From assembly GCF_003260275.1 (NCBI RefSeq), contig NZ_QJHB01000001.1, positions 62,001 through 126,000 on the forward strand: DNA of 64,000 bases, read 5' to 3'. Both the position numbers and the translations under genes were made by a program. This DNA is from Homoserinimonas sp. OAct 916. GTDB lineage: Bacteria; Actinomycetota; Actinomycetes; Actinomycetales; Microbacteriaceae. Positions 1-64,000 of this stretch are shown in pieces (positions within the stretch are counted from its first letter, which is position 1; each line of letters opens with the position of its first letter). The notes beneath the pieces are model-generated. The model saw only the letters and a program-made list of their open reading frames with translations. It was not told the origin of the DNA and ran no database searches.

Positions 1-3000
1 CGGGTGCCCAGCTGAGCACGATGGATCGATTGCCGAAACTCAACACCTCCAGGTTGTTGACCGCGGCCGGTCGGTCTTGAACGGAGACGGTCACGGTACC
101 CCAGACGAAGCGGTCCGGGCTGCCGGTGGCATCCATGACCTGGTATTGCAGGGTGGTGTCGACCGGCGCTGTGCCGTTCGCGGCGGTGATCGACAGCGTG
201 GAGCGATCGCCGGACGGTGTGATCGTCAACCCTTCGGGCAGCGTACCGCCGTCCAGGCCGCGCACGGCGACAACCTGCAATGGAACACCCGGGAACGGAT
301 TCGTGGTCTCATCGTTGGTCAGGACGTCGACCGAGATCGAACTGCCACGGGGGACAACGACACGATCGGATGCGGGAACGGCGAGCGGACGGGTGGAGGA
401 GACCACCTTCAGATCGATTCTTCCGCCCTGACCGTCGCTGTCCTTGTCCCTCACCCCGACGGTGATCGCCGTGGTCGCCCCGCGCACAGCGGAATCGGAA
501 GCGCGGATAGTGAGTCTGGGTCCCTCCAGCCGGTAGCTGAAGTCGACCGGCTGCGGTTCGACGATCGAGTAGACGATATCGGGCAGATCGTTCAGGTATG
601 GATAGGTGGTCAGTTTGACCAGGTCGATGGTCTTCTCCTGCCCGGGCTCGAACTCCAGTGCTGCACCGGTGAAGACCGGTGGCTGGTTCGTGCGCGGGGT
701 GACCGTGATCGGCAGGACAAGCGTCGCCCGGCGGCCGGCGGGGTCAGTCGGGGAGGTTCCGTCGGTCACCTCGAAGGCGATGGACGCCGGGCCGAAATAG
801 CCCTCGGCACCGGTGAAGACCAGGGTGCTCTCATTGGCAACCAGTGGGTCGCCGTTTGAGTTGGTGGCCTGCACCGTGTTCTCGTTCACCAATCTGACGG
901 GCCTGCCATAGGCGGCGACCACGTATTGGTTCAGGTCGATGGTCAGTTGGGCGTCGCTGGCAATGGTGAGCGTGCCCACACCCCGGCGTAGTTGCGGCAG
1001 CGCATCGGTGGAACCGGGCACCCGGATGAATGCGTATGACACGATCTCTGCATCCTGCGGATGGGTGACCTGGAAGGGGATGATCTGCCCTGCGTCCTCG
1101 ACCTGCACGGTGACGATGTTGTTCGGCATCACCGTGGCGGTGGTCGGGAAACCGGGCACCAGTTCGAGGAGCAGATCACTCACATTGCCGTCGGCGAAAA
1201 AGACGTTGCTCAACACGTTCACGTCTACCCGGGAACGGCCCAACACATCGGACAGGCTCAATTGGGTGTCGCTGGCGATCGGCCACGAGAGTGGTGCATC
1301 CTTCTTGACGATCACAGTCAGGAAGTTGGAGCTCGTCCCACCACGGGAATTCTGGATCTCGTAGATGAAGCTGTATCGTCCCTCGACCGCCGGTGACTGC
1401 ACCCGAACCACGTCTCCGACGATTTCGGCGGGGATGGGCGTCGCCTGTTCTGGTCCGGCCTGGGTGACGTCAATGATCTCGAGCGTTCCACCATCCGGGT
1501 TCGAATCGTTGTCGAGCACCTGCACCGAGACCAGCGTGTCGGGGCGCACCGTCACTTCATCCGCGACGGCGATGGGGTTCCTCGCCCCGTCGAGCCGGGG
1601 GCTGATCCCGACCCGGATCAACCCGCTGGCCCGGGCGCCGAGTGCGTCCGCGACGGCATACCCGAACGTGTCGGTACCAGACGAATACTCCCCGGCCTGA
1701 TATTCGATCCAATCTGCTCCCAATTGGAGCACTGTGCCCTTCTCCGGGCTCGTCTCCTGTCCGATCAGTTGAACCGAGTCCCCGTCGGGGTCGATCCCGC
1801 TGAGCGCGATGGGAATGCGAACGGTTTCGCCGGCGAGAACGCGTGCCGTCACCATGCGCGGCACGGGCGGATTGTTCGACGCCTCGTCCACTTCTCTCAC
1901 CGCGATCTTCACTTCGGCAGTCGACCACTGGCCGTCCGGAGCATCCACCCGATACACGGCGGTGTAGTTGCCGGGTGTCGACGGGGCGAGGTAGCGCAGG
2001 CGATTGCCGGAGGCGAACAGGAGGCCGGACTCGGTCGGCAGGCCGCGCTCCAACGTCGGGTTCAGGGCGAGCGTGTCGCCGTCGGGCTGGGAGTCGTTCT
2101 TGAGCACCGGTATGTTGATGGTGTCGCCCACGCGAACTGAGACCGAGTCGGGTTTCGCGACCGGTGGCTGTTTGCGGATGGGTACCGGAATCTGCACCAC
2201 TGTCACGTTTCCCTCGGCCTCGGCCAGGCCATTGCTGACCTGGTAGTTGAAGACCGCCGAGCCGCCCTCCAACGGCTTGGTCAGGGTCACCCTGAGAATC
2301 CGTTGTTCCAGGATCTCCACCCGAAGGCCTGAGGCAACGGGCACGTTGTGCACCCCGGTGATCAGCAGCACGGCCCCGGCCGGGTCGAAGTCCCCGGCCA
2401 GAACGTCGACCTGCGCACTGGTCTGCTCGTGGATGAACGCGGAGTGCGGCACCGTGATCGGCTTGCTGTTGGCGTCGGGAAGTGCCAACACGTCCACCCG
2501 CACCTGAGCGGCGTGCACGAGGTCGCCATCGGTCACCTGGTAGTCGACGTAGGTCGTTCCGACGGATTCACCCACGAACCGGAATGTGCCCCCGTCATAG
2601 TCGGGAGTCAGCGTTATCCCGATCTTGGCCGGGACCGATGACAATCGGATCGTCCCGGTGCCTCCGCGAACGTGAGAAAGCGGGGAGACGGTGACCTCCT
2701 GGCCGGTATAGGCGAGCACCACGAACGTGTCGGCTGTGATCGGCACGTCTCCCGGGGCCTTCACCTTGATCTTGAGCGCACCGACCTGCTCCGAGCGCCC
2801 GTCTGAGACCACGAGACGCACTTCGACCTCGGCGCCGGCAGAACTGGCGTTCCGGTAGGTGACGGTTCCGTCCCGGGTGAATGAGACCTCATCCGGCGAG
2901 GTGACACTGGCTGAGGTGAGATAGAACGAGTCCCCATCCGGGTCCACCCAGTCCCCCAGTACCTGTAGGGAGAGCCGGCCGCCGGCCGCAACCTCGGCGA

Positions 3001-6126: not shown

Positions 6127-6192
6127 GTGACGGATCAGGAGGTGACGGATAAGGAGGTGACGGATCAGGAGGTGACGGATGAGGAGGTGACG
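6127..6192. repeat. 15-bp tandem repeat at the 3' end of the PP2C gene
   Basis: Four full copies of a 15-bp unit (plus-strand consensus GTGACGGATcAGGAG) and a partial fifth. The phosphatase stop codon lies in the third copy counted from the left. Copies differ at one position, which reads TCA, TGA, TTA and TGA on the coding strand, so the array continues past the stop in the same frame. Confidence 0.95.
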
Positions 6193-7007
6193 TCGAGCAC
6201 GTCGATGACGATCACCGTGACGTTGTCACGTCCGCCATTTTCAAGCGCGGCCTGAACAAGCGCCTCAACGGCCGCATCGGCAGTGTCATTGTTTGAAAGG
6301 AAGTGCGCCAGACCGTGAGCGGTCAATTCCTTGCTCAAGCCATCGGAACAGATCAGCAGCCGCGTCCCGGCCAGGACGGGAAGGGCGTAGTAATCCGCTC
6401 GGGGCTCCTCGCTGAAACCGACCGCCCGAGTGATGACGTTTCCGTAGGGATGCACTTCGGCTTCTGCCGGGGTGATCTTTCCTGTTGCGACCAGTTCCTG
6501 AACCACAGAGTGATCGGTTGTCACCTGGAGGAGCGCGTCATCGCGCCAGAGGTAGACCCGAGAGTCACCGATGTTGAACACAACCCATTCCGGGGCACCG
6601 TCGCGCTCACACAGGGCGATGCCGGTCACGGTCGTTCCCGTTCCGGCGTCGATACCGGCGTCAGGACCGACCTCGGCAGCGTGCCGGATGTCTTCGACGG
6701 CTTTGAGGAGCGCCTCGCCGATCGCCTCCGGTTCGGCAAAACCATCGGCGGCCAGTTCCTCAAATCGGTTAGTGACCGCGCGCGATGCGACCTCCCCGGC
6801 TGAATGACCGCCCATCCCATCGGCGACGACGAAGACCGGAGAGCCCGCCCAATAACTGTCCTGATTGTTGGCGCGCACGAGCCCCGTCTCGGTGGCTGCC
6901 GCCCAGGCCACGGTGACCTGGGAACCGTCCGTGCCGACGACGGTTGCCCGGCCGGCTCTGCGGGCACAGGGGTCGGATGCTGGGCTCGGGGAACTCGGTT
7001 GGCTCAT
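6165..7007 (-). CDS. PP2C-family Ser/Thr protein phosphatase
   Basis: A soluble phosphatase of 280 residues that probably reverses phosphorylation by the adjacent kinase. PP2C metal-site motifs are present: RANNQDSYW near the start, VADGMGGHSAGEVAS, NIGDSRVYLW, and GGRDNVTVIVID near the end. The ATG at 7007 is preceded by CAGGGAAG; a GTG at 7037 is the alternative. The last residues (SSSVTS) are encoded by the 15-bp tandem repeat. The gene follows the FHA gene closely and is separated from the kinase by about 230 bp, part of which is repeat. Confidence 0.92.
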   Translation of the reverse strand: MSQPSSPSPASDPCARRAGRATVVGTDGSQVTVAWAAATETGLVRANNQDSYWAGSPVFVVADGMGGHSAGEVASRAVTNRFEELAADGFAEPEAIGEALLKAVEDIRHAAEVGPDAGIDAGTGTTVTGIALCERDGAPEWVVFNIGDSRVYLWRDDALLQVTTDHSVVQELVATGKITPAEAEVHPYGNVITRAVGFSEEPRADYYALPVLAGTRLLICSDGLSKELTAHGLAHFLSNNDTADAAVEALVQAALENGGRDNVTVIVIDVLDVTSSSVTS

Positions 7008-8410: not shown

Positions 8411-8416
8411 CGAGGC

Positions 8417-16248: not shown

Positions 16249-16392
16249 ACCTCTCGGCGGGCGAAGGGGTTTCGGAGGGCTAAGGGTTATCGGCAGGCCA
16301 AGGAGTCTCGGCGGGCTATGGCGTCTCGGCAGGCTATGGGGTCTCGGCAGGCTATGGGGTCTCGGCAGGCTATGGGGTCTCGGCAGGCACGG
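16249..16392. repeat. Eight-copy 18-bp tandem repeat overlapping a stop codon
   Basis: Eight consecutive 18-bp units (plus-strand consensus GGGTCTCGGCAGGCTATG). The units nearest the gene are almost identical, while those further left diverge steadily. The reductase stop (TAG at 16370-16372) lies inside a unit, and in-frame TAG triplets recur every 18 bp downstream. The last residues of the protein (PAETP) are repeat-encoded. Confidence 0.96.
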
Positions 16393-17350
16393 CGGCGAAT
16401 ATCGCGTCGATCGAGGCGATATCCTCAGGCGTCGGGAGCCAGGTACCCGCGGCTGCGTTCTGCACCACCTGCTCGGGTTTGGTCGCGCCGGCAATCACGC
16501 TGGTCACCCCCGGTTGGGCAAGCAGCCAGGCGAACGTCGCATCGAGCATGCTCACACCGCGCTCATCGCAGAAAGCCTGGTATTGCTCGATCACGGACCA
16601 GTCGACCCGATCCATCAGATGTGGCTTGTTGACTGTGACCCGGCCATCGGCGGGGCCACCCGACCGGGTGTATTTTCCGGTGAGGATGCCGTCGTGCAGC
16701 GGGTAGAAGGGCAGGAATCCGAGCCCGAAGGCGTTGACCGCTGGCAGAACCTCCGCCTCGGCGCCGCGGCTGAGCAGGTTGTATTCGTTCTGGGCCGAGA
16801 TGAACTTCGGGTGCCCGTTCAATTCGGCGGTGAGTTCGGCCTCCGCGATCTGCCAACCGGCAAAGTTGGAATGGCCGATGTACCGGATCTTGCCCTCTGT
16901 GATCAGGTCATCCAGCGTCGACAGTGTCTCCTCGATCGGGGTGACACCGTCGGGCTCGTGCAACTGGTACAGGTCGATCCAATCGGTCTGCAGCCGGACG
17001 AGTGATGCCTCCACCGCACGTCGGATGTACCGCCTCGCGGCCCGCGCTCCCCAATCGGGACCGTTCGCGCCGGCCATGTCCATGCCGAACTTGGTCGCGA
17101 GCACGATCTGGTCACGGCGACCCTTCAGCGCATTGCCCATCATTCTCTCGCTCAGGCCGGACTCCGCCCCGTAGATGTCAGCACCGTCGAAGAGGGTGAT
17201 CCCCGAATCGACGGCCTGGTGGATGACTGCGTCCGTGCCCGCTTGGGTTTCGGTCGCACTGCGTGCTCGGCCGAAGTTGTTGCAGCCCAGCCCGATCGCG
17301 GAGACCATGAGGCCCGAGCGCCCGAGGGGGCGGTAGTTCATTGAAGTCAT
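16370..17350 (-). CDS. Aldo/keto reductase
   Basis: A 326-residue NAD(P)H-dependent TIM-barrel oxidoreductase. The catalytic residues are visible: FDGADIYG (Asp and Tyr), VLATKFG (Lys) and DLYQLHEPD (His). The C-terminal cofactor loop reads VIAGATKPEQVVQNA. It most resembles the YajO/Tas-like bacterial AKR groups; the substrate is unknown. The ATG at 17350 follows GGGAA at short distance; a second ATG three codons in is also possible. Its C-terminus ends in the 18-bp tandem repeat. Confidence 0.9.
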   Translation of the reverse strand: MTSMNYRPLGRSGLMVSAIGLGCNNFGRARSATETQAGTDAVIHQAVDSGITLFDGADIYGAESGLSERMMGNALKGRRDQIVLATKFGMDMAGANGPDWGARAARRYIRRAVEASLVRLQTDWIDLYQLHEPDGVTPIEETLSTLDDLITEGKIRYIGHSNFAGWQIAEAELTAELNGHPKFISAQNEYNLLSRGAEAEVLPAVNAFGLGFLPFYPLHDGILTGKYTRSGGPADGRVTVNKPHLMDRVDWSVIEQYQAFCDERGVSMLDATFAWLLAQPGVTSVIAGATKPEQVVQNAAAGTWLPTPEDIASIDAIFAAVPAETP

Positions 17351-18799: not shown

Positions 18800-18859
18800 T
18801 TCGACGAGGAGGGGCTCAACGACGACACGCTGAGCGACAACACTTTCAACGACAACGGG
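18800..18859. repeat. 15-bp tandem repeat upstream of yaaA
   Basis: Four 15-bp units; the last three (from 18815) are clear, with consensus cTCAACGACaACAcg. The first (18800-18814) is more diverged. It occupies the spacer between the yaaA start and the atpC terminator. Confidence 0.8.
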
Positions 18860-23262: not shown

Positions 23263-23344
23263 CTGAAGTTCCTCTTTGTCTCTTGTCCTGGGGGTTGGCC
23301 CCCGCGGTGTAAAAATTGGGGAAGCGCTGGCTTCAGCGCTGCTT

Positions 23345-23389
23345 TTTCAGTACTACGTGTTTCCGTGCTGCGTGTTTCAGTGCTGCAAC
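23345..23389. repeat. 15-bp tandem repeat over the atpH stop codon
   Basis: Three 15-bp units (plus-strand consensus TTTCAGTgCTgCGTG). The atpH stop (23377-23379) is inside the rightmost unit, and the array runs on downstream into the atpH-atpA spacer. Two further inverted repeats lie in the same spacer: GGGGG/CCCCC near 23290-23303 and AGCGCTG/CAGCGCT at 23323-23340. Confidence 0.85.
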
Positions 23390-24171
23390 TGCAGCTTCAA
23401 GTCCTTGATACGGGTGGCAATGCTGCCGTCGATCACGTCGTCGCCGATCTGCACCCGCAGTCCACCGACGACGCTCGGATCGATCACGGTGTTCAGCTGT
23501 AGCCGCCGGCCATACATCGCACTCAGCTTCTCGTTCAGCGTGTTGAGTTGCGTTTCGGCGATCGGCGCCGCACTGGTGACGGTCGCCACGTGCAGCCCTG
23601 CCGCATCGGCGACGATCGAGGCCGCGAAGCCCGTGAGCTTGCGCACCCGGCGTCCGCGCGGCTGGGCGATCAGATGATCGACGATCGCCCTTGTTGCCGG
23701 CGACGCCTTATCGAGCAGTCGATCGACCAGCGCAAGCTTTGCACCGGTGTCGCCGAGTTTGTTGCCCAGGGCGAGTTCCAATTCGGAGTTGCTGGCGACG
23801 GCCTCCCCGAAGGTGAACAGTTCGTCTTCAACCGATACCGTGCCGACGCTCGCGATGGCCGCGGCACGGATGCCAAGATCTTCAAGTCCCACGAGCAGGT
23901 CGTCCTGATCGGAGAAGCGGCTCGTGGCCAACGTCTTCAGCAGCACGGTGGCATTGCCCCCGAGCTTCGACCCGAACACCTGGTCGACCAGGGCTGCCTT
24001 CTTCTCAGGTGTGGCTGCCGAGTCGGCCAGAGCTGCCTTCAACGGCGCGGACGCGCCGACGGCACGTCCCGCGGCAAAGAGGTCTTCGGCTGTCGCCAAA
24101 TCGATCTTGTCGCCGAGGTCTGTGAGCGCCGCCCTGCCCCTGGCCAATGCTTCTCTGGTCGCGCTTCCCAT
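23377..24171 (-). CDS. atpH: F1Fo ATP synthase subunit delta
   Basis: A 264-residue peripheral stalk subunit that joins b to the top of F1. It is about 80 residues longer than E. coli delta, as is normal for this phylum. The C-terminal block VDPSVVGGLRVQIGDDVIDGS is diagnostic. The ATG overlaps the atpF stop by one base (TAATG). The final residues LQLQH adjoin a 15-bp repeat. Confidence 0.95.
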   Translation of the reverse strand: MGSATREALARGRAALTDLGDKIDLATAEDLFAAGRAVGASAPLKAALADSAATPEKKAALVDQVFGSKLGGNATVLLKTLATSRFSDQDDLLVGLEDLGIRAAAIASVGTVSVEDELFTFGEAVASNSELELALGNKLGDTGAKLALVDRLLDKASPATRAIVDHLIAQPRGRRVRKLTGFAASIVADAAGLHVATVTSAAPIAETQLNTLNEKLSAMYGRRLQLNTVIDPSVVGGLRVQIGDDVIDGSIATRIKDLKLQLQH

Positions 24172-24764
24172 TACTTGGTCAAGCCTGCCTTATCCGTTTC
24201 GCTTTTTTCGAGGTCGGCCAGGAATCGGTCGACGATCGATGAGGCCTTGGCGTCGTCGGTCAACGACTCCCCGATCACGCCGGAGGCGAGATCCAGAGCC
24301 AGTGAGCCGACCTCCTGGCGCAGTGAGACCACTGCGGCCTGCCGTTCGGCCTCGATCTGCGTCTTGGCCTGCGCGGTGACCCGAGCTGCCTCGACGCCCG
24401 CCTGCTCCTTCAGGTCAGCGAGAATACGCTGTCCGTCGGCTCGGGCGGTCTCGCGGATGCTCCCGGCCTCGGCACGTGCCTCGGCCAGCTGGGCGGTGTA
24501 CTCCTCAAGGGCGGCCTCAGCCTGACGCTGGGCCTCATCGGCCTTGGCGATGTTGCCCTCGATGGCGGCAGAACGCCTGTCCAGCATCTGCTGGAAATTT
24601 GGCAGAATCTTCCAGAAGAAGACCGCGAGCACGACCGCGAAGCACAGCGCCGACCAAACGAGATCGTAGACCGCTGGCAGCAACAGGTTCGGCGCAGCCT
24701 CAGCTGAGGCTGCCTGAATCAGCGCTCCTTGCATCAGCGCTCCTTGAATCAGCACAGTGTTCAC
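24171..24764 (-). CDS. atpF: F1Fo ATP synthase subunit b
   Basis: A 197-residue subunit: one membrane helix (about 35-55, LVWSALCFAVVLAVFFW) then a long charged coiled coil. It forms the stator. The N-terminus is unusual: residues 5-19 are encoded by a 15-bp tandem repeat (LIQGA-LMQGA-LIQAA) ahead of the normal AEAAPNLLLP. The ATG at 24764 is used; an ATG ten codons in lies inside the repeat and could also work. Confidence 0.95.
   Translation of the reverse strand: MNTVLIQGALMQGALIQAASAEAAPNLLLPAVYDLVWSALCFAVVLAVFFWKILPNFQQMLDRRSAAIEGNIAKADEAQRQAEAALEEYTAQLAEARAEAGSIRETARADGQRILADLKEQAGVEAARVTAQAKTQIEAERQAAVVSLRQEVGSLALDLASGVIGESLTDDAKASSIVDRFLADLEKSETDKAGLTK
24715..24759. repeat. In-frame 15-bp repeat in the atpF N-terminus
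   Basis: Three 15-bp units (plus strand TGaATCAGCGCTCCT); two are identical but for one base, the third is diverged. They are in the reading frame, so each copy adds five residues. Confidence 0.85.
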
Positions 24765-27708: not shown

Positions 27709-28527
27709 CTAGCCGCTCGCCTGCGCCCCGGGTGCGATTGCATCGGGTCGCCCGGCATCGCTCGCCTCGGAATCGCTCGGCTCGGCATCGCTCGGCTCGG
27801 TATCGCTGGGCTCGGAATCCGCCACCGACGCGACGTCTGGCTCGGGCTCCTCGGTTGCACGTTCGAGCACGTCACCGATCACGGCGCGCAACTGTTCCTC
27901 GCTGATCACTCCAGAACGGAGCACGCGAATCTTTCCGCCCTCGGCCTGGAGCCCGGTGGCATCGATGATTGTGGAGCCCTGGTGCGCCCCGCCGGTGCCC
28001 TCGGCGCGACCGCCGTCGAGGTAGAGCGTCACCGAATTTCCGAGCATCCCCTCCGCCTCCTGGGCGGTGTCGGCCGCCGGCTGGCCGGTGAGGTTCGCGG
28101 ATGAGACGGCCAACGGTCCGGTCTCGGCGAGCAGTTCAAGTGCCACCGGGTTGGCGGGCATGCGCAGCGCGACGGTGCCGTGCGTGTCGCCGAGATCCCA
28201 GAGCAGCGAGGGCTGGGAGGGCAGGATGATCGTCAGCGCCCCCGGCCAGAACTCTGCGACCAGGTCGCGCACGGCAACGGGAACGTGGCTGGCGAGGGCG
28301 TCCAGGGTGGCCAGATCCGGAATGAGCACCGGCGGCGGCGCATGCCGGGTACGCCCCTTGGCGTCGAGCAATCGTTGCACCGCACGCGGGGTGAAAGCGT
28401 CGGCGGCGACCCCGTAAACGGTGTCTGTGGGGATGACGACAAGCTCGCCGCGTCCTATCGCCGCGCGTGCGAGCCTCATCCCGGCCAGGAGTTCGGTATT
28501 CTCCGAACAGTCATAGATGCGAGCCAT
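27709..28527 (-). CDS. tsaC: L-threonylcarbamoyladenylate synthase (Sua5/TsaC)
   Basis: A 272-residue enzyme that makes threonylcarbamoyl-AMP from threonine, bicarbonate and ATP for the t6A modification of tRNA. Motifs: VIPTDTVYGVAADAF, KGRTRHAPPPVLI, GTVALRMPAN and LAVSSANLTGQPA. The body ends near residue 220; the last 45 residues are an acidic Ser/Pro/Asp tail built by a 15-bp tandem repeat. The ATG at 28527 (MARIYDC) fits the family start. Confidence 0.93.
   Translation of the reverse strand: MARIYDCSENTELLAGMRLARAAIGRGELVVIPTDTVYGVAADAFTPRAVQRLLDAKGRTRHAPPPVLIPDLATLDALASHVPVAVRDLVAEFWPGALTIILPSQPSLLWDLGDTHGTVALRMPANPVALELLAETGPLAVSSANLTGQPAADTAQEAEGMLGNSVTLYLDGGRAEGTGGAHQGSTIIDATGLQAEGGKIRVLRSGVISEEQLRAVIGDVLERATEEPEPDVASVADSEPSDTEPSDAEPSDSEASDAGRPDAIAPGAQASG
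27740..27814. repeat. In-frame 15-bp repeat in the tsaC C-terminus
   Basis: Five units of 15 bp (plus-strand consensus GcATCGCTCGGCTCG), encoding EPSDT, EPSDA, EPSDS, EASDA and GRPDA. The middle units are the most alike and the outermost left unit is the most decayed. Confidence 0.93.
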
Positions 28528-35803: not shown

Positions 35804-37939
35804 TCACGCTTCCTTGCTGTTGGGGATCGTGGGCATGGACTTCTGCACCTGCATCAGGAACTCGACATTGCTCGAAGTCTCCTTCAACCGGCCGAGCACC
35901 ATCTCCAGCGCCTGCTGAGTGTCCTGGCCCGCCAACGCCCGACGCAGTTTCCAGGTGACCTGGGTCTCGTCGGCGCTCATCAGCATCTCTTCCCTGCGGG
36001 TACCGGATGCGTTCACATCGACAGCTGGGAAGATGCGCTTGTCCGCCAGCTGGCGCGACAGTCGCAGTTCCATGTTTCCGGTTCCCTTGAACTCTTCGAA
36101 GATGACCTCGTCCATCTTGGAGCCCGTCTCGACCAGTGCCGAGGCGATGATGGTGAGGGAGCCGCCGTTCTCGATGTTGCGAGCAGCACCGAAGAACCGC
36201 TTGGGCGGGTACAGCGCCGAGGCGTCGACCCCGCCGGAGAGGATACGGCCGGATGCCGGCGCGGTGAGGTTGTAGGCGCGCCCGAGCCGGGTGATCGAGT
36301 CGAGCAGCACGACCACGTCGTGGCCCAGTTCGACCAGGCGCTTTGCGCGCTCGATCGCGAGCTCGGCGACGGTGGTGTGGTCTTCGGCCGGACGGTCGAA
36401 GGTGGAGGCGATGACCTCACCCTTCACCGTGCGTTGCATGTCGGTGACCTCTTCCGGGCGCTCGTCCACGAGCACGACCATCAGGTGCACCTCGGGGTTG
36501 TTCGCAGAGATCGCGTTGGCGATCTGCTGCATCACGATCGTCTTGCCCGCCTTGGGCGGAGCCACGATCAGGCCGCGCTGTCCCTTGCCGATCGGCGACA
36601 CCAGGTCGATGATGCGCGTGGTGACCTTGGACGCGTCAGTCTCCAACCGCAGGCGCTCCTGCGGGTAGAGGGGGGTGAGGCTCTGGAACTCGACCCGCGT
36701 GGCCGCCTCATCGACACTCAACCCGTTGATGGAGTCGACTTTGACGATCGCGTTGTACTTCTGGCGACCCCCGGTGCTCTCGCCATCTCGCGGCTGGCGG
36801 ATGGCGCCAACGACGGCGTCACCCTTGCGCAGGTGGTACTTCTTGACCTGACCGAGTGAGACGTAGACGTCGTGGGTACCCGGCAGGTAACCGCTGGTGC
36901 GCACGAACGCGTAATTGTCGAGGACGTCGAGGATGCCCGCGACGGGGATCAGCACGTCGTCATCGGAGATCTCGGGCTCGAAATCGTCTTGCCCACCACC
37001 GCGACGTTTACGGTCCCGGTAGCGGCTGCGGCCCGAACGTGACTGGTCTCCATCGTCGTCGCCTCGGTTGGGCGGCTGGTTCTGGTTCTGGCCCTGCTTC
37101 TGGCCCTGCTCCTGCTTGGTCTCTGTTCGGTCGGAGCCGCGGTCAGCATCCTGCCCGGAGCCGCGGCGATCACTGCGCCCACGCCGGTTTCGCTGCTGGC
37201 GGTCGCCGGAGGAGGCCTGCTTGTCGTCGTCGCCCTGTCCGTTGCCGGCATCCTGGCCCGTGTCGTGAGCCGTGCCGTTGTGGTCAGTGCGGTCCTGATC
37301 GGCAGTCTTCTCCGTGTCGGCGGTTCGACCCTGGCCGTCCTTCCGATCCTGACTCTGCGTGTCCTGCTCTTCGGACTGGGCACGTGCACCCTTGCGCCGA
37401 TCGTTGCCTTCGTTGCGGCTTCCGCGGCGACCGCCGCGCTGCTGCCCGGCCTCTGTCGCCTCGTGTTCGTCAGCAGCCTGTTCGGCCTCGGTCTTCTGGC
37501 TTGTCGAATCAGCCGCACCGCGCCTGTTCGGAGACTGCCTAGCGGTCGTCTGGTCCAAGGCCTGGTCCAGCGCAGCCAGAGCGTCTGCCGAGGTGGCGCG
37601 ACGGGGGGCCCGGCGGGCCGGGGCCTCGGGGATCTCCAGCGGCTCCACTGCTCCAGCGGGAGCCTTGCGGCCGGCTGGCTCAGCTGCGTCGGCGGACTTC
37701 TTGCGGCCAGCCGATGTTCGTGCGGCAACAGGCTCGACAACCGGCTCTGCCGCCGGTGCTGTTTTCTGACTTGCCGGGGCGCGGCCCGCGCTGATCGCCT
37801 CGATCAGCGCACTCTTGCGCAGTTTGGACACGCCGGGCACTCCGAGCTTGGCCGCCATGGCCTGAAGCTCGGTCACCTTGAGCGTGTTGAGGTCGCCGCC
37901 GGAAGCGGCATCGGTGTTGGGATTGTTGACATTGGTCAC
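35804..37939 (-). CDS. rho: Transcription termination factor Rho
   Basis: A 711-residue RNA-dependent ATPase helicase. A Rho-N domain ([21 protein letters not shown]) is followed by about 270 residues of Arg/Asp/Gln/Gly-rich, probably disordered sequence. Then come the RNA-binding cold-shock fold ([21 protein letters not shown]) and the ATPase core (Walker [13 protein letters not shown] and R loops). The long hydrophilic insert is known for actinobacterial Rho and binds RNA. GTG start behind AAGGAA. Confidence 0.97.
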
Positions 37940-41561: not shown

Positions 41562-41625
41562 TTTCAGGGGCTGAGGGTTTCAGGGGCTGAGTGTTTCAGA
41601 GGCTGAGGGTTTCAGGGGCTGATTC
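41562..41625. repeat. 16-bp tandem repeat over the lysA stop codon
   Basis: Four 16-bp units (plus-strand consensus TTTCAGGGGCTGAGgG). The lysA stop (41612-41614) lies in the rightmost unit, and the array fills most of the lysA-hom gap. The period is not a multiple of three, in line with its non-coding position. Confidence 0.94.
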
Positions 41626-45846: not shown

Positions 45847-45905
45847 GCAACGCGGCGGCTGGCAACAGAGCGACCAGCAACAGGCGACCAGCAACAGAGC
45901 AACCG
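45847..45905. repeat. Mostly 15-bp tandem repeat before the lipoprotein gene
   Basis: Four units of 15, 15, 14 and 15 bp based on GCAACAGaGCgACCA. It ends 20 bp before the ATG and occupies the space where the promoter and leader of the lipoprotein should be. Confidence 0.88.
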
Positions 45906-45925
45906 GCAATAGAAGGATAGAGACC

Positions 45926-46657: not shown

Positions 46658-46741
46658 TAGTAATAGAGCCCGGTAGAAACTAGAGCACGATAGACGCTAG
46701 AGCACGTTAGAAGCTAGAGCACGTTAGAAGCTGGAGCACGG
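46658..46741. repeat. 17-bp tandem repeat after the lipoprotein gene
   Basis: Four clear 17-bp units from 46674 (consensus TAGAagCTAGAGCACGt) plus a decayed one before. It begins 31 bp after the stop codon. Confidence 0.93.
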
Positions 46742-46775
46742 TCGTAAGAGACGGCGCCTGCGGCGGTGCCGGATC

Positions 46776-46858
46776 ATCAGCGCCCGAGCTATCAGCACCG
46801 AGCATCAGCACCGAGCATCACTACTGGAGCATCACCACGGGTACATCACCCCGGGTAC
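46776..46858. repeat. 13-15-bp tandem repeat up to the pdxH stop codon
   Basis: Six units of 15, 13, 13, 14, 14 and 14 bp that begin ATCA(G/C)CaCcGaG. The next ATCA contains the pdxH stop. Together with the 17-bp array it fills nearly all of the 232-bp gap between the convergent genes. Confidence 0.88.
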
Positions 46859-46859
46859 A

Positions 46860-47714
46860 TCAATGCCAGAGTGAGGCGTGCTCCCAGCTGGAGGCAGTGC
46901 GTGAGTACCTGACCCGCACCTGTTCCCGCGCGGCAGTCGTCTGCCAGAACTCAATCTCCTCCGGCTGCAGTCGATACGCCGTCCAGGCTCGCGGTACGAA
47001 CAATGGGTTGCCGGCCACGAACTCCTGCGCAGCCGCAAGCTGGCGCCGAACCGCGTCTGCGCCCGGCAGCGGCTTGCTCTGCTCGCCAGTGAGGGCCGCG
47101 GCACGCGCCTGGGGGCTGCGGGCGCGGAAGTCTGCCTCACTCACCTCGCGGGGTCCCTCGAACACCTGGCCGCGCACCCTGACCTGCCTGGCCTGCTCAC
47201 GCCAGTAAAGCGTGAGAGCGGCGGCCGGGTTCTCTACCAGTTGCTCACCCTTGGGGCCGTCACTCATCGAAGCGAACCAGAACCCATCAGTCCTCCCAGC
47301 GCCCGAATCCGAACCCGGGGCACGATCTCGCTGGTCGGAAGTGACGTCTTTCAGCAACAGGGTGCGGGCATCCGGACGACCATCCCCGTCAACGGTGGAC
47401 AGGACCATCGCATGTGGTTGGGAAACCCCAGAGCTGATCGCTCCGTCCAACCAGGTCGCCATCAGATCGTAGGGGTTCTTCGGCACGGTGGCCGCGTCGA
47501 AATCGCCCGGCACGATCGGAAACGCGTCCAGTGAGCGCAACCGGAGCCGCAGTGACTGCTGCCCCGACACAGGTTCACCCGACACAGGTTCATCCGACAC
47601 AGGTTCATCCGACACAGATTCGTCCGAGGCGAACTCGTGTGATCCGGGAGCGCGCGACGCAGAGTCGGGGGGTTGCGAATGCGGATACTGGCGCGGACGC
47701 GAATGCTCGGTCAT
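46860..47714 (-). CDS. pdxH: Pyridoxamine/pyridoxine 5'-phosphate oxidase
   Basis: A 284-residue FMN enzyme that makes pyridoxal 5'-phosphate, the cofactor of several enzymes in this window. Core motifs: MVLSTVDGDGRPDARTLLLKD, GFWFASMSDGPKGEQL, NPAAALTLYW, RQVRVRGQVF and WTAYRLQPEEIEFWQ. The first 60 residues are a Ser/Pro/Glu-rich tail absent from most homologues, and part of it is built by a 15-bp tandem repeat. Confidence 0.93.
   Translation of the reverse strand: MTEHSRPRQYPHSQPPDSASRAPGSHEFASDESVSDEPVSDEPVSGEPVSGQQSLRLRLRSLDAFPIVPGDFDAATVPKNPYDLMATWLDGAISSGVSQPHAMVLSTVDGDGRPDARTLLLKDVTSDQRDRAPGSDSGAGRTDGFWFASMSDGPKGEQLVENPAAALTLYWREQARQVRVRGQVFEGPREVSEADFRARSPQARAAALTGEQSKPLPGADAVRRQLAAAQEFVAGNPLFVPRAWTAYRLQPEEIEFWQTTAAREQVRVRYSRTASSWEHASLWH
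47566..47640. repeat. In-frame 15-bp repeat in the pdxH N-terminus
   Basis: Four good 15-bp units (plus-strand GACACAGGTTCAtCC) and a fifth decayed one, encoding SDESV, SDEPV, SDEPV and SGEPV. Two units are identical. Confidence 0.94.
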
Positions 47715-49608: not shown

Positions 49609-50574
49609 ATGGAGAACATTGACGTTTTGCCCGGCCAGCATCCAAATATTTCGGAACCGCCACCGGAACCGCAACCCCGCAACAAATTTGGTTTTGCCGC
49701 GATGATCATCGGAATCGTGGCGATCGTGATCTCATTCGTGCCATTCGTGAACCTGAGTGTCGGGCTGATCGGCCTGGTCGGGCTCGTGCTCGGAATCATC
49801 GGCCTCACCAGGAATGGCCTGCCAAAACGTCAGGCGCTGACTGGTGTGATCCTCTCAGCGGTCGCGATGGTTGTCGCGATCGTGATGACCATCGTCTACA
49901 GCCTTATGTTCGCCAGTTCCCTTGGCGAAAGCCTGGAGGAGTCGTTCGGCGCGGAGTGGGAGATCGTGGAGGACGACCCATTCGGCGGCGAATCCCTGTT
50001 CGGCGACGACTTCTCCTTCGACGAGGAAACGGGAATCGACGAGGAAACAGGGTTCGACGAGGTCGAGTGGGAGCCGATTACAGAAGGTGAGCTGGGACCG
50101 GAGCTCGGAATTGCGGATGGCGTGGGCGCCGCAGACTCTCCACTTCCGCTTGGGACTCCGATGAGGATCATGGGAATGGGGGACTGGGAATATGAGCTTG
50201 TGCTCGGCCCGACCATGCTCAACGCCAATGCCTACGTCGCCGAAGCGGACTCCGGCAACAAACCGCCGCCGGAAGGACAACAGTACGTCGCGGTCGATGC
50301 CACGATCACCTACATAGGTCCAGAAGCGGAGAGCGACGGAACCTCTCCCTCGTTCAGTCTTGGCTTCGCATTCAGCGACGGTACGGACAATCCGAGGACG
50401 AGCCTTCGAGACCTGAAGAATGTGCATGAGAGCTTGACCGGGTACAGCCTGGCGCAGAACGAATCGGCAACCGTCACCTACGTCAGGCTCGTCCCGAGCG
50501 CTGAGGTCGAAAACGGTATGTGGAAAGTGACGCAGTCATTCTGGATGCGGGACGTCTACTTCACTGCGAAGTAG
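49609..50574 (+). CDS. DUF4190-like membrane protein with DUF4352-like outer domain
   Basis: A 321-residue protein of unknown role. After a short Pro-rich start come two hydrophobic segments (about 30-62 and 75-102) in the DUF4190 style. Then comes an acidic linker with an 18-bp in-frame repeat (DEETGI/DEETGF). The C-terminal domain (about 185-321: GDWEYELVLGPTMLNANA, YVAVDATITYIG, SATVTYVRLVPS) has the DUF4352 beta-sandwich pattern of exported proteins. Confidence 0.78.
   Translation: MENIDVLPGQHPNISEPPPEPQPRNKFGFAAMIIGIVAIVISFVPFVNLSVGLIGLVGLVLGIIGLTRNGLPKRQALTGVILSAVAMVVAIVMTIVYSLMFASSLGESLEESFGAEWEIVEDDPFGGESLFGDDFSFDEETGIDEETGFDEVEWEPITEGELGPELGIADGVGAADSPLPLGTPMRIMGMGDWEYELVLGPTMLNANAYVAEADSGNKPPPEGQQYVAVDATITYIGPEAESDGTSPSFSLGFAFSDGTDNPRTSLRDLKNVHESLTGYSLAQNESATVTYVRLVPSAEVENGMWKVTQSFWMRDVYFTAK
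50020..50055. repeat. In-frame 18-bp duplication in the membrane-protein linker
   Basis: Two 18-bp units (GACGAGGAAACgGGaaTC) and a partial third encode DEETGI, DEETGF and DEVE in the acidic linker. Confidence 0.75.
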
Positions 50575-50734: not shown

Positions 50735-52411
50735 CTACCTGGTGCGGTGGGTACGGCCTGGTTTGGCTCTAACCGGGTTCGTCACGGTTTGGGTCACGGT
50801 TTGGGTCACGCTTTCGGTGAAGGTGGGCCAGGTGTCTGGCTGGTCGGTGATGATCCGGCCGGTGGGGGTGGTCCATTCCAGTACTCCCGGGGACATTTGT
50901 TTCACTTCCCACCCGCCGTGGTGTTTCAGGGTGTGGTGGCCGCGGCAGAGGTGGGCGAGGTTGTTGGGCACGGTGGGGCCACCTACTTCGGCGGGGATGG
51001 TGTGGTCGATGTCGCACCGGCCGGCAGACCGGGTGCAGCCCGGCTGTCGGCACCGGCCATCTCGCAATCGAAGGAACCGGCGAAGTTTCGCCGACGGCCT
51101 ATACGTGTCGGCGGTCAAGGCCATGCCGGTGACCGGGTGGGTGAGCAGCCGTGTCAGCCTGGGTGCGTCGGCGGCCAACCGGCGGGCGGTGGCCGGGTCG
51201 ATCGGGCCCTTCCCCGCGAGCGTCGGTGGTTCCAGCCGGACTTTCCCGGGTTTCGTCCCCGTACCAGTGCCTGTATCGCGGGCAGTGTTCGTGCCTGTGC
51301 TGGTATCGGCGCCGGTGTCGGGGTTAGTCCTGGCGCTTCCTGTTGCTCCGGTGCTGTTGCCATCGTTCCTGCCGGCGTGGCTGCGTGCGTTGGTGTCTGT
51401 GGTGCCACCGCCGCCGCCACCGCCACCGCCGCCGGTGTCGGTGCCCGGGTCTGTGTGGAGGAGGGTGAGTGCGGGGATCACGACCGCGATCTCGGCGCGG
51501 ATGCCGATGCCGGCGTGGTGGGGTGCGTCTTCGCAGCCGGTGGGTTGCCCGGTCAGTAACAGCTCACAGGCCAGATCGGCGCGCAACTGGTCATAGCTGC
51601 GTGGCTCACCGGTGACCAGGTCACCGGTGTCAGGGTCGAGGGTGCGGGCGCCGGCGGCGCCGGTGATGGCTTTGGCCTGTTGGGTGAGCCGGTCCAGGAT
51701 GCCCTCCGCCAACACGGTCGGCACGGTCATACCCAGCTCGGACAGGCCGTCACCGATGTCGTGCACCCACACCCGGCGTTGTTTGTACGCCTGGTCGTAC
51801 CGTTGCTGAAAAGTGACCTCGCCGCACGTCGCGGCCGCCCGTTGCGCGTACCGGCCGAGCCTGCCCGGGGTGGTGTCGGCCGCTTTGTCCAACACCACCT
51901 GTTCGTAGACGGCCCGGGCGGTGTCGTCCTGGATGGGCAGGCCGTGGTCGGCGATCACCCGGATATGGCCCAGGTCGATGCGGCCGTCGTTGAGAGCGGC
52001 GACCGCGGCCGGGTAGTCGGTGACGAACCGTTCCGCGTCAGCGAGGCGGCGACCCATGGTGCGCTCAGAGACCCGGTGCGCGGCGGCGAGGTCGGCGACC
52101 AGGGACCGGTGCGCGATCGACGGGTCACAACCGTACAGTTCGGTGTTGCCGGCCCGCGCCCACACCGCCAGGGTCGCCAACTCGTGCAACTCCTGGGCCT
52201 GCAGGGCACCCATCTGCTGCCGGATCACCACGGTGCGGGCGATCGCAGCCGCCGCCTTCTCATCACCGGGACCAAACAGGACAGCGTTCCCAGCTACAGC
52301 GGAGTCGTCGGACCGGGTCGGGTTGGCCGGGATATTCGACGGACCCGGCACCCCGTAGTCGGCTGGAACCCCCAGGAGGTGAGGACCTTCCCCCGCGCCA
52401 GGTTCGAACAT
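50735..52411 (-). CDS. DUF222/HNH (13E12-type) endonuclease
   Basis: A protein of about 558 residues. The N-terminal DUF222 helical region (ELHELATLAVW, VSERTMGRRLADAERF, GRIDLGHIRVIADHG) is followed by a low-complexity linker with ten consecutive glycines and Thr/Gly/Asp repeats. A C-terminal HNH nuclease has RDGRCRQPGCTRSAGRCDIDH and HLCRGHHTLKHHGGW. The family is multicopy in actinobacteria and includes REP13E12 of M. tuberculosis. I choose the ATG at 52411 (MFEPGAG) because it falls inside a LexA-type box, as seen in relatives; 52420 is the alternative. Confidence 0.9.
   Translation of the reverse strand: MFEPGAGEGPHLLGVPADYGVPGPSNIPANPTRSDDSAVAGNAVLFGPGDEKAAAAIARTVVIRQQMGALQAQELHELATLAVWARAGNTELYGCDPSIAHRSLVADLAAAHRVSERTMGRRLADAERFVTDYPAAVAALNDGRIDLGHIRVIADHGLPIQDDTARAVYEQVVLDKAADTTPGRLGRYAQRAAATCGEVTFQQRYDQAYKQRRVWVHDIGDGLSELGMTVPTVLAEGILDRLTQQAKAITGAAGARTLDPDTGDLVTGEPRSYDQLRADLACELLLTGQPTGCEDAPHHAGIGIRAEIAVVIPALTLLHTDPGTDTGGGGGGGGGGTTDTNARSHAGRNDGNSTGATGSARTNPDTGADTSTGTNTARDTGTGTGTKPGKVRLEPPTLAGKGPIDPATARRLAADAPRLTRLLTHPVTGMALTADTYRPSAKLRRFLRLRDGRCRQPGCTRSAGRCDIDHTIPAEVGGPTVPNNLAHLCRGHHTLKHHGGWEVKQMSPGVLEWTTPTGRIITDQPDTWPTFTESVTQTVTQTVTNPVRAKPGRTHRTR
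50781..50816. repeat. In-frame 12-bp repeat near the endonuclease C-terminus
   Basis: Three 12-bp units (plus strand GTCACGGTTTGG, two identical) encode the C-terminal TQTV/TNPV series. Confidence 0.85.
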
Positions 52412-53359: not shown

Positions 53360-54559
53360 GTGAAATTCTCGCGCATCATCGCATCGACCGGGGCAGTCGC
53401 CCTTGTCGCAGCGTCAGTACTCCTCGGGGCCGGAGTTGCCCAGGCCGCCGACTACTTCGTCACCGCTGACGACTTCGGCGTCGAAGGCGACTCGTACCCC
53501 CAGGGTTGGTTTGTCGGGGACATGGGCCCCCAGACTGGAAGTATCCAGTCCACGCCTGACGGCCTCGAAATCACCGGGCCGCTGCAGATCCTGAACGGTA
53601 CGACCCCGTCCACCGACATCCTCGGTCTCGTGGGCAACGATCTCGATCTCCGGCACACGGGGACCGCGACGTTCCAGATCCCTGTTTACACGGGTACTGG
53701 AGCGAACGGATTCACCACGTTCCGCCCCGCGCCCTCGACCTTGCCCTGGAATCCGAACGGCGACTGGATAACAAGTCAGGCGTGGGGCGGCTACGCCAAG
53801 GGCGCCACAGCCAGCCTGACAGAGTTCGCAGCAGCCATGGACCCCGGATACACCATCCTTGCATTCGGGCTTTTCGTCAATGCCGGAGACGTCGTCACGG
53901 TCCAGCAGATCGAGTGGGCCGGAGACACGCACTACTTTGTGCCCGGGCCGACCGGCGTCTTCGACATCTCGGTGCTGAGCCTCGACGACTTGCGGAAGAA
54001 CGGCGTCAGTGTGACCTTCACCAATCTGCCAAAGTCGCTTTGGGCCTGGTGCAACATCGTCGCGGGCGAATATGAAGCGATTGATTGGCCGAACCTGGAC
54101 GACGAGGATTTTATCTCTAAACAGCAGATCGACCTGAACGAGGACGGGTCCCTCACAGTGACCTACCAGCCGGGCGCAGATGTGGAGCTCGCGGACGGCC
54201 CGTACACCGTGGCGTGCTTCACGTCAGAAGTGGACTCCGCCCTCAACACTGCGCACGCCACTTTCACGATCGCTGAGGCAAACGAGGAGACTCCCGTGCC
54301 GCCCGCCGACGAAGGCGACGAGGAAGCTCCCCTGCCGCCCGCCGACGAAGGCGACGAGGAAGCTCCCGCGCTACCCGTCGACGAAGGCGACGAGGACGAG
54401 TCGGCGGTCCCAGTCGTCGCTGCGCCTAAGAACGCCACCCCCGCGCTAGCAGCGACCGGCGTCGACGGCGGTCCGCTCGCCCTCGCTGCCTTCCTGCTGG
54501 TCCTGGGCGGCCTGGGAGTCACCGCCGTGGCGACACGTCGCACCGTGAGCGCGCGATAG
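53360..54559 (+). CDS. Secreted protein with LAATG sorting signal
   Basis: A 399-residue protein. Signal peptide KFSRIIASTGAVALVAASVL with cleavage after AQA (about residue 29). An extracellular body of about 280 residues shows no domain that I recognise; it contains two cysteine pairs (WCNIVAG, VACFTSE). Then follows an acidic Pro/Asp/Glu repeat linker (about 312-350) and a C-terminal LAATG motif, hydrophobic helix and RR tail, the layout of class E sortase substrates. It is probably fixed to the wall. The GTG at 53360 is chosen because it begins a proper signal peptide. Confidence 0.85.
   Translation: MKFSRIIASTGAVALVAASVLLGAGVAQAADYFVTADDFGVEGDSYPQGWFVGDMGPQTGSIQSTPDGLEITGPLQILNGTTPSTDILGLVGNDLDLRHTGTATFQIPVYTGTGANGFTTFRPAPSTLPWNPNGDWITSQAWGGYAKGATASLTEFAAAMDPGYTILAFGLFVNAGDVVTVQQIEWAGDTHYFVPGPTGVFDISVLSLDDLRKNGVSVTFTNLPKSLWAWCNIVAGEYEAIDWPNLDDEDFISKQQIDLNEDGSLTVTYQPGADVELADGPYTVACFTSEVDSALNTAHATFTIAEANEETPVPPADEGDEEAPLPPADEGDEEAPALPVDEGDEDESAVPVVAAPKNATPALAATGVDGGPLALAAFLLVLGGLGVTAVATRRTVSAR
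54296..54400. repeat. 36-bp in-frame repeat in the wall-spanning linker
   Basis: Just under three units of 36 bp, encoding (V/L)PPADEGDEEAP. The first two are identical except for the first base. Confidence 0.93.
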
Positions 54560-55582: not shown

Positions 55583-55652
55583 GGGGCGGCACCATCGAGG
55601 CGGCACCGTCGAGGCGGCACCATCGAGGCGGCAGCGTCGAGCCGGCATGGCA
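55583..55652. repeat. 14-bp tandem repeat between AlaX and tdh
   Basis: Five units of 14 bp (GaGGCGGCACCaTC); the last is decayed. It lies in the divergent intergenic region, 46 bp from the AlaX start. Confidence 0.92.
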
Positions 55653-58041: not shown

Positions 58042-58045
58042 CAAA

Positions 58046-59645: not shown

Positions 59646-59800
59646 CCGAAGTACGCACAACCATGGTTTCCGCAACCACAGCTCTCGAAACCACAGCTTT
59701 CTAAACCACAGTGTTCGGTAGAACGGTGCTCGGCAGAACAGTGTTTCGCAGAACAGTGTTTCGCAGAAAAGGGCTTGGCAGTACAGTGCTCAGCAGAACC
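59644..59800. repeat. Ten-unit decaying 15-bp array filling an intergenic region
   Basis: Nine clear 15-bp units from 59659 to 59793, a decayed one at 59644 that starts in the TAA stop, and a partial one after. The unit drifts gradually from AACCACAGCTcTCgA on the left to CAGAACAGTGTTTCG on the right, where two neighbours are identical. Almost the whole gap between the arginase-family gene and the oxidoreductase is repeat. Confidence 0.95.
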
Positions 59801-59814
59801 GGAAGGAACCTGAA

Positions 59815-61278: not shown

Positions 61279-61279
61279 C

Positions 61280-61660: not shown

Positions 61661-61688
61661 CCGCTCCCTGCGCTGGACCCACAGCACC

Positions 61689-61754: not shown

Positions 61755-61786
61755 AGCGGTGGAGGGCCCTGTTGGATTGGGCAAGG

Positions 61787-61842
61787 GCTGGGCTGAGCTG
61801 AGCTGAGCTGAGCTGAGCTGGGCTGAGCTGGGCTGAGCTGGG
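61787..61842. repeat. 5-bp (GAGCT/GGGCT) tandem repeat after the SIP gene
   Basis: About eleven 5-bp units, alternating GAGCT and GGGCT towards the right, ending five bases from the SIP stop codon. Confidence 0.93.
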
Positions 61843-61846
61843 CAAG

Positions 61847-62338
61847 TCAGGCGGCGCGGCGTCCAAGCCTGTAGGCCTCACGGGTGGTGATCATGTCATC
61901 TGACAGACCCAGGGTCTCGGTCAGGTACTCGTGGATGGCCGCCACACCGCGGTAGTCGCCGCCCAACCACACCTGGGTGCGAGCCAGCTCGGTGGAATCA
62001 CTGTCGGTCTCGGCGGCTTCGCAGATCATCTCGGCGGCCCAGGCGCGGGCGGCACGGGACACTGCCGTCCCCGGGCGACAGGCCTCGGCCGTTCCGGGTG
62101 CGCCAGAGCGCGTGGACCGGGCCAACCAGGTCACGGTCATCCGCGGCGGCACCGCAAGGAGCCCGATGTGGTCCGGGGTGGGGACCTCCACGAAGACCCG
62201 GCCGCGCGCACAGAGAGGCAACGCCGCCAGTGCCAACTCGAGTTCGGCGAACGTCGTCTCATCGCTGGTGAGGAGGAAGTGGGGCGCTCCGGTGGTGTGT
62301 TTGGTCCTGGCCGAGTGGCCGGTATGCTGCGTGATCAT
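61847..62338 (-). CDS. Stand-alone SIP (siderophore-interacting) domain protein
   Basis: A 163-residue protein that matches only the C-terminal NAD(P)H-binding half of siderophore-interacting ferric reductases: HFLLTSDETTFAELELALAALP, RVFVEVPTPDH and QVWLGGDYRGVAAIHEYL. The FAD-binding half is absent. The iron box in its promoter supports a role in iron supply. The ATG at 62338 lies about seven bases after a TATACT -10, so the mRNA may be leaderless. Confidence 0.85.
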   Translation of the reverse strand: MITQHTGHSARTKHTTGAPHFLLTSDETTFAELELALAALPLCARGRVFVEVPTPDHIGLLAVPPRMTVTWLARSTRSGAPGTAEACRPGTAVSRAARAWAAEMICEAAETDSDSTELARTQVWLGGDYRGVAAIHEYLTETLGLSDDMITTREAYRLGRRAA

Positions 62339-62348
62339 CGCCTCAAGT

Positions 62349-62367
62349 ATAGGACAGCCTTACCTAA
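62349..62367 (-). promoter_or_regulatory. DtxR/IdeR iron box overlapping the SIP promoter
   Basis: On the minus strand TTAGGTAAGGCTGTCCTAT agrees at 15 of 19 positions with the DtxR consensus TTAGGTTAGGCTAACCTAA. It overlaps a TATACT -10 just before the start codon, so an iron-loaded repressor would shut the gene when iron is plentiful. Confidence 0.85.
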
Positions 62368-62397
62368 CTCGGCGAGGGTCGAAGGAGATTCTCCGGG

Positions 62398-63822
62398 TCA
62401 CCACTGCACGGGATGTCTGGCCTGCCAGTCGATCACGCGCTCCAATTGTGCCCCGAGCGCGAGCAGGGTCTCCTCCCCACCCGGCCGACCGATCAATTGA
62501 ACCCCCATCGGCAGCCCGGTGGCGGTCTGTGCGATCGGCAACGTGATCGCGGGCAGACCGGCCACGTTCACGAATGAGGTGAACGGCGTGTACTGCACCT
62601 GTTGGGCGAAGTTACGCTCGGCGTCCTCGGCGTCATACCAGCCGACCGGACGCGGAGTCATTGCCAGGGCGGGGGTGAGCACCGCGTCAAAGCCGGCGAA
62701 GAGACGGATGATCTGGGCTTCGAACGCACTGAGCGCGGCGAGCGCCTCTGCGAGCTGCCGGGCGCTGAGGGCCCGGCCCACGGCGACCAACCATTGTGTC
62801 AATGGTTCCAGGAGGTGCAACGCCTCGCGCTCGGCCGGGATGCTCGCGGCACCCGCCTGCCAGATGGTGCGGAACGCCGGAGCGTAGCCAGGGGTGGGTG
62901 GCAACGCCAGTTGGTCGATCTCGTGGCCAAGGGCGGCGAACTCACGCACCGCTTGGGCCAGGGCATCCTGGGCCTCTGGTGCGATGGTGATCTCGTAGGC
63001 GTCGTCCCAGGGCGTTGTGGTCATGACACCGAGCCGAAAGGTGCCTTCGGCGGCGAGCGCCGCCTGCAGAAGGCTGCCGCTCAACTCGGGCGCGCGCAGG
63101 GTGAAGTGGTGGTCGACACGGCCATCCGAGCGGCCGATCATGCCATCGGCCAGCAGCGCGGTGTCGGCGACCGTGCGCGCCAGTGGCCCGGCCACGGCAA
63201 GGCCGCCGAGACTGCCGATGCCACTGCCGGCCGGGATGAGCCCGCGGGACGGTTTGAGGCCGACCAAGCCGCAGGCTGCGGCCGGGATGCGCACCGACCC
63301 GCCACCGTCGGAGCCTGGCGCGAACGGTAATAACCCGGCGGCGACAGCCACCGCTGCTCCTCCGCTGGATCCGCCGGCACCGAGGCTCATGTCATAGGGC
63401 GTGACCGCGGGCGGAGCCACCAACGACTCGGTGTAGGAGGGTAGGCCGAACTCCGGGGTATTCGTCTTGCCCAGGCTGATCGCGCCGGCATCGTCGAGCA
63501 CCGTGGCGATCTCGTCCGAGGTCTCAGGGATGAACCCGGCGGTCAGTCGGGAGCCGAACCCGCAGGGCACTCCTTTGCGCTGGGTGAGATCCTTGTCAGC
63601 GAACGGCAACCCCCACAGCGTGACCGGCTTCGGCCCGGACTGCTCAAGGGCGCGGGCGGCATCGAGGGCGGCATCCGCTGTCACGGTCACAAAGGCGCCC
63701 AACGGCTCATTCAGCCGGTCGATGCGTTCAAGATAGTGACGGGTCAACTCGACCGGCCCGATGTCACCGGTTTGCAGGGCGTTCCGTTGTTCGAACGCGG
63801 TCAGATCGTGTAGCTCAGCCAT
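62398..63822 (-). CDS. Amidase-signature family hydrolase
   Basis: A 474-residue amidase. The Ser-cisSer-Lys triad is visible: Lys77 in PFADKDL, the Gly/Ser stretch GAGGSSGGAA (about 150) and nucleophile Ser176 in GSDGGGSVRIPAA. It hydrolyses an unknown amide; GatA is less likely, as no gatB or gatC is nearby. The SIP gene and its iron box follow on the same strand. Confidence 0.92.
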   Translation of the reverse strand: MAELHDLTAFEQRNALQTGDIGPVELTRHYLERIDRLNEPLGAFVTVTADAALDAARALEQSGPKPVTLWGLPFADKDLTQRKGVPCGFGSRLTAGFIPETSDEIATVLDDAGAISLGKTNTPEFGLPSYTESLVAPPAVTPYDMSLGAGGSSGGAAVAVAAGLLPFAPGSDGGGSVRIPAAACGLVGLKPSRGLIPAGSGIGSLGGLAVAGPLARTVADTALLADGMIGRSDGRVDHHFTLRAPELSGSLLQAALAAEGTFRLGVMTTTPWDDAYEITIAPEAQDALAQAVREFAALGHEIDQLALPPTPGYAPAFRTIWQAGAASIPAEREALHLLEPLTQWLVAVGRALSARQLAEALAALSAFEAQIIRLFAGFDAVLTPALAMTPRPVGWYDAEDAERNFAQQVQYTPFTSFVNVAGLPAITLPIAQTATGLPMGVQLIGRPGGEETLLALGAQLERVIDWQARHPVQW

Positions 63823-63890
63823 CTGCCCAGCCTACGGGGCGCCCCCATGGCGGGCTCAGCCGTGCGTCTTTCAGGGCGGCAGCACTCAAA

Positions 63891-64000
63891 CAGGCAGGAG
63901 TCAAACAGGCAGTCAACCAGGCAGTCAACCAGGCAGTCAACCAGGCAGTCAACCAGGCAGTCAATCAGGCAGGAGTCAACCAGGGAGCGACCAGTCGATC
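63891..64000. repeat. 12/15-bp tandem repeat at the window edge
   Basis: Units of CAGGCAGTCAAC: a 15-bp unit (63891), five 12-bp units (63906-63965; four identical), then another 15-bp unit and decayed copies to the end. The 15-bp forms carry an extra GAG. It lies upstream of the amidase and may continue beyond the window. Confidence 0.94.

Follow-up and report, generated by a model that had tools for sequence, protein, structure and literature searches.

A 64-kb stretch of a 3.64-Mb draft genome from the Microbacteriaceae (positions 62001–126000 of contig C51; the window hereafter) carries short tandem arrays at many gene boundaries. Are these arrays more than chance repeats, and what process could have placed them there?

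Tandem arrays exceed chance in the window and across the genome

A preliminary description of the window had listed 19 arrays, nine of them with a 15-bp period. Tandem Repeats Finder (TRF) recovered all 19 positions, with offsets of at most about 60 bp, along with two arrays absent from that list, at 37082 (12 bp, in rho) and 46830 (14 bp). The nine 15-bp arrays were likewise recovered (6127, 18814, 23332, 24715, 27753, 30718, 45862, 47564 and 59674/59708), those at 18814 and 23332 being weak (75–78% match). Other periods were 18 (16252, 50018), 16 (41562), 17 (46664), 13 (46775), 12 (50781, 63895), 36 (54282), 14/28 (55585) and 5/10 bp (61787).

Tandem arrays of the window (all from TRF; additional evidence in brackets)
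6127–6192, minus: 15 bp ×4.4, across the stop codon of a PP2C-type phosphatase gene (6165–7007, minus) [Pfam]
16252–16388, minus: 18 bp ×7.6, across the stop codon of an aldo/keto reductase gene (16370–17341, minus) [Pfam]
18814–18856, unstranded: weak 15 bp ×2.9 (75% match), flanked by two minus-strand genes
23332–23386, minus: degenerate 15 bp ×3.7, across a stop codon, upstream of atpA
24715–24753, unstranded: 15 bp ×2.6, at a gene start (24171–24734, minus)
27753–27819, minus: 15 bp ×4.5, coding, C-terminal tail of Sua5 (27709–28527, minus) [Pfam]
30718–30808, minus: 15/30 bp, coding, 851-aa protein without Pfam match [Pfam]
37082–37114, minus: 12 bp ×2.8, coding, in rho
41562–41622, minus: 16 bp ×3.8, between lysA and hom [sequence]
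45862–45913, unstranded: 15 bp ×3.5, intergenic, divergent gap next to argS
46664–46742, unstranded: 17 bp ×4.6, convergent gap
46775–46820, unstranded: 13 bp ×3.4, same convergent gap as the 46664 array
46830–46862, minus: 14 bp ×2.4, across the stop codon of a pyridoxamine-phosphate-oxidase-like gene [Pfam]
47564–47627, unstranded: 15 bp ×4.3, 5′ edge of the pyridoxamine-phosphate-oxidase-like gene
50018–50062, plus: 18 bp ×2.5, coding
50781–50818, minus: 12 bp ×3.2, coding, near the C-terminus of a DUF222/HNH protein (50735–52411) [Pfam]
54282–54396, plus: 36 bp ×3.2, coding, protein without Pfam match [Pfam]
55585–55647, unstranded: 14/28 bp, divergent gap
59674–59799, unstranded: two contiguous 15-bp arrays, flanked by arginase and oxidoreductase genes [Pfam]
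61787–61843, unstranded: 5/10 bp, convergent gap, 4 bp past a stop codon
63895–63972, unstranded: 12 bp ×6.6, 4 bp past a stop codon

Comparison with shuffled controls had been proposed together with the list. Keeping genes and gaps in place, we shuffled dinucleotides between genes and codons within them. At a score of at least 50, the window held 21 merged arrays versus 0.7 expected (maximum 3 in 40 shuffles), far above the controls. To extend the count, 1.57 Mb (43% of the genome) was sampled and genes were called with a self-trained hexamer model; some of the sampled ‘intergenic’ DNA still displays three-base periodicity, so these home-made calls missed some genes. TRF reported 270 arrays in this sample, 141 coding and 129 intergenic. 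The first 766 kb contained 61 intergenic arrays as compared to about one in shuffles, and clean arrays—defined by a match of at least 85%, at least 2.8 copies and a period of at least 9—did not occur in shuffles at all. The window is a hot stretch: its 6.2 kb of intergenic DNA hold 15 arrays, whereas the sampled genome has 129 in 191 kb. The densest stretch found was a contig end (the first 64 kb of C135; 28 arrays), where a single gap (L171:10262–10700) harbors four contiguous arrays, including one of 15 bp ×10.7 with 97% match.

Arrays share a step of about 15 nt

A lag spectrum computed independently of TRF over the 1.57 Mb revealed a smooth bell in intergenic DNA, with 4, 8, 14, 29, 18, 11 and 6 counts at lags 12, 13, 14, 15, 16, 17 and 18. 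The coding spectrum also peaked at 15 (56, versus 18 at lag 12 and 20 at lag 18), and the period was divisible by three in 134 of 141 coding arrays, in line with what had been described for the window. Given the bell at 15 in non-coding DNA, the step is not set by codons. Among two-copy arrays the peak lay at 14–16, and from about four copies upwards it lay at 15; the former peak indicates that the first duplication, like the later expansion, proceeds by this step. A peak of runs one base below the period was dismissed as an artefact of single point mutations inside arrays. In 100 kb of Escherichia coli, a small sample, four arrays were detected, none with a period of 12–20.

Units are private to nearly every locus

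The unit had been said to differ at every locus, and 127 of the 129 intergenic arrays indeed lacked a copy elsewhere in the 1.57-Mb sample, leaving two with such a copy. One clear exception, outside the window, is a 57-bp ×3.2 intergenic array (C51, about 262999–263179), whose relatives on C115 and C22 identify it as a dispersed repeat. Motifs shared between units did not exceed chance: the top 6-mer was present in 11 of 129 arrays, while random intergenic pseudo-units gave 7–12. A MIRU-like or other dispersed repeat family, with homologous units at many loci, was rejected in view of the private units, as were regulatory arrays built on a shared motif (TAACTGA type), no common motif emerging across the 129 intergenic arrays. 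With head-to-tail units above about 9 bp, beyond chance and private to their locus, the arrays of this single genome resemble locus-specific VNTRs, or minisatellites.

Arrays favor the 3′ ends of genes

The initial assignment of arrays to ‘gene edges’ held for 3′ edges and failed for 5′ edges. A stop codon fell inside 30 arrays versus 12.2 expected from random shifts (maximum 21), whereas a start codon fell inside only seven (12.4 expected). Per 10 kb of gap, we counted 13.2 arrays in convergent, 6.9 in codirectional and 4.4 in divergent arrangements. Within codirectional gaps, 26 arrays lay at most 15 bp from the upstream stop (16.6 expected) and seven at most 15 bp from the downstream start (16.4 expected). 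Coding arrays were concentrated towards gene ends, with 36 of 141 in the final tenth. A process striking everywhere would, once filtered by selection, leave such a placement.

Two loci of the window support the earlier proposal that local duplication makes spacers and protein tails: an opened lysA–hom junction and a repetitive tail of Sua5. In 47 of 77 relatives, lysA and hom share a 4-bp overlap; here they are 81 bp apart, and about four copies of a 16-bp unit reproduce the last bases of lysA plus TGA. None of the 27 relatives whose lysA–hom gap is long enough to score carries an array there. Sua5 comprises 272 residues in this genome, with the Pfam domain ending at residue 206, and in most relatives the protein is alignable only to about residue 220; the tail holds a 15-bp array, read as SDTEPSDAEPSDSEASDA.

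Might the arrays instead be functional 3′ elements under selection, for instance C-rich sites for Rho loading whose contacts are regularly spaced, or gene insulators? Their bias towards 3′ ends and convergent gaps would fit, and in codirectional gaps the sense strand of arrays shows a larger excess of C over G than that of array-free controls (0.143 vs 0.037; p = 0.006, one of several tests). However, the lysA–hom array is not conserved, no motif is common to the units above chance, coding arrays display the same peak at 15, and some arrays reside in divergent gaps. We accord a selected 3′ function only a slim chance.

Array density varies between lineages

Per 100 kb of intergenic DNA, clean arrays numbered 23.6 here, 24.8 in Curtobacterium (hom loci), 10.8 at the hom locus of other genera—the hom loci being one neighborhood and not independent—and 0.7 in six relatives elsewhere (0.8 Mb in total). 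Away from the hom locus, these six genomes yielded one clean intergenic array in 150 kb versus 45 in 191 kb here (p about 1e-10), and one clean coding array versus 44. Given such different reference densities, the excess is anywhere from 2- to 35-fold, according to the comparison set. In this comparison, of a kind also proposed at the outset, the genome is denser in arrays than most sampled relatives, but Curtobacterium is equally rich.

The presence of arrays in relatives, at the hom-locus densities given above, and the similar mean period among periods of 12–21 (15.6 in relatives, 15.8 here) are what an ordinary short-repeat background of a G+C-rich actinobacterium, with nothing lineage-specific to it, would produce. 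Yet the scarcity of clean arrays in the six relatives off the hom locus and their absence from shuffles speak against a mere background, which we deem unlikely.

In the gap after argS, different Curtobacterium species carry arrays of 4, 6, 9, 14, 15, 17 and 26 bp in the same place. Such unlike arrays in one orthologous gap suggest that arrays have arisen and disappeared repeatedly. The step may vary between lineages, the mean period being 17.0 in Curtobacterium versus 15.8 here (p = 0.017, with loci not independent). Coding arrays of relatives at the hom loci also peak at 15; judging from array positions, this peak probably derives in part from the repetitive N-terminal region of rho there, and it was left out of the argument. 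Beside the arrays in the Curtobacterium argS gap (for example in L064 and L053), several species possess an inverted repeat around GGACACAGCACCGC...GCGGTGCTGTGTCC, which could represent either a terminator or a small mobile repeat.

Candidate repair genes do not track array richness

The lack of MutS/MutL in Actinobacteria had been raised as a possible explanation. MutS is absent from the present genome, which encodes NucS, but it is also absent from 39 of the 40 genomes searched, array-poor relatives included. Since this absence is common to array-poor relatives, the richness here is not explained by a lack of MutS/MutL. MutS_V matches were confined to one of the 40 genomes, with two in neighboring genes (G008:C1:251858–253788). 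MutSL efficiently repairs loops of 1–3 nt, with efficiency declining as loop length increases (PMC4060949). Expansion through a mismatch-repair defect was discarded, as richness does not track loss of MutS or NucS. Neither did it track Ku, MutS, SbcD, DinB/ImuB-type polymerases or a stand-alone 5′–3′ exonuclease beside polA, and no gene difference among the candidates compared across relatives explained it.

Slipped-strand duplication as a probable origin

We consider it fairly likely that the arrays are minisatellites born in place by recurrent slipped-strand duplication with a step of ~15 nt, filtered by selection. In this scheme, about 15 nt (range 12–20) would be copied head to tail during DNA synthesis, with slipped-strand mispairing as the simplest way to the first duplication, in many cases between short (4–10 nt) direct repeats. 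Further slippage would turn two copies into three to ten, and point mutations would then blur them. Selection in coding DNA would let only multiples of three survive, mostly in C-terminal tails; survivors in non-coding DNA would lie mostly downstream of stops, away from starts and promoters.

Exact two-copy duplications (n = 39) had a mean of 4.7 extra matching bases, versus 0.7 expected without microhomology. Many contained 4–10 nt of microhomology; about a third had 0–1 extra matching bases. The combination of unrelated units with microhomology at many two-copy duplications favors slipped-strand duplication, and we infer slippage as the event. The bell at 15, the two-copy peak at 14–16, the unrelated units and the unlike Curtobacterium arrays in the same gaps agree with the recurrent local duplication near 15 nt that had been suggested for the window. 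Simple slippage does not predict the microhomology-free third well. A smooth bell at 15, moreover, is not expected from plain slippage alone, shorter steps being at least as easy.

The microhomology-free third leaves room for fill-in and end joining. Here, nicks or breaks staggered by about 15 nt would undergo non-homologous repair, being filled in and joined by Ku/LigD; this would duplicate the overhang without microhomology, and slippage would expand it afterwards. The genome encodes Ku, and stagger length would yield a bell-shaped step. Array density, however, does not follow Ku—the Ku-positive genomes G006, G021 and G014 are array-poor and the Ku-negative G017 is no poorer—and the 4–10 nt of microhomology at many duplications argue for slipped strands, making this repair route improbable.

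We tentatively raise the possibility of a mutational process with a measure of about 15 nt in this lineage and perhaps, as a separate case, in Curtobacterium: a nearly fixed-size replication or repair step that would make tandem duplications at a far higher rate than sister genera show and would continually write 3′ spacers and protein tails.

Comparison with known systems

Minisatellites are usually treated as typing markers. The present case is one genome with hundreds of them, with one preferred step that extends to non-coding DNA, and with a concentration at stop codons. If the step is an enzyme property, the period histogram of a genome would be a readout of that enzyme, and there would be a simple route to pulled-apart overlapping operon junctions and repetitive protein tails, as at lysA–hom and Sua5. 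Our literature search, covering mostly papers available without subscription, revealed no earlier account of a ~15-nt step for Microbacteriaceae, nor a description of such an array number in one genome, of a ~15-nt step in non-coding DNA or of a stop-codon bias.

Several known systems resemble the arrays in part. Beggiatoaceae likewise have many short intergenic tandem arrays in one lineage, but these are TAACTGA heptamers, one shared 7-bp unit located just upstream of starts (PMC4679880), whereas here the units differ and stops are favored. Closer in phylogeny, the VNTR loci used for MLVA of Clavibacter michiganensis are locus-specific tandem repeats from the same bacterial family; their units of 20–45 bp were chosen for gel typing, and the accessible part of that report gives no step spectrum or gene-end bias (PMC3691591). 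MIRUs, too, are intergenic tandem units of an actinobacterium used as VNTR markers, but they measure 40–100 bp and occupy 41 places (PMC2734929), as opposed to the mostly 12–20-bp units here, which are unrelated between loci.

The rnc–fpg1 VNTR (ETR-F/VNTR3239) of the Mycobacterium tuberculosis complex also consists of private direct repeats that open a gene junction in an actinobacterium (PMC2734929). This junction spans 358 bp in M. tuberculosis, versus a few bp to 54 bp in other mycobacteria, and its copy number is variable (PMC2734929). It is one locus, with a main unit of 37 bp and shorter repeats of 16 and 18 bp, and its effect on expression has been measured (PMC2734929). The arrays described here, as seen in one genome, fall into the same general category as rnc–fpg1 and comparable mycobacterial VNTRs.
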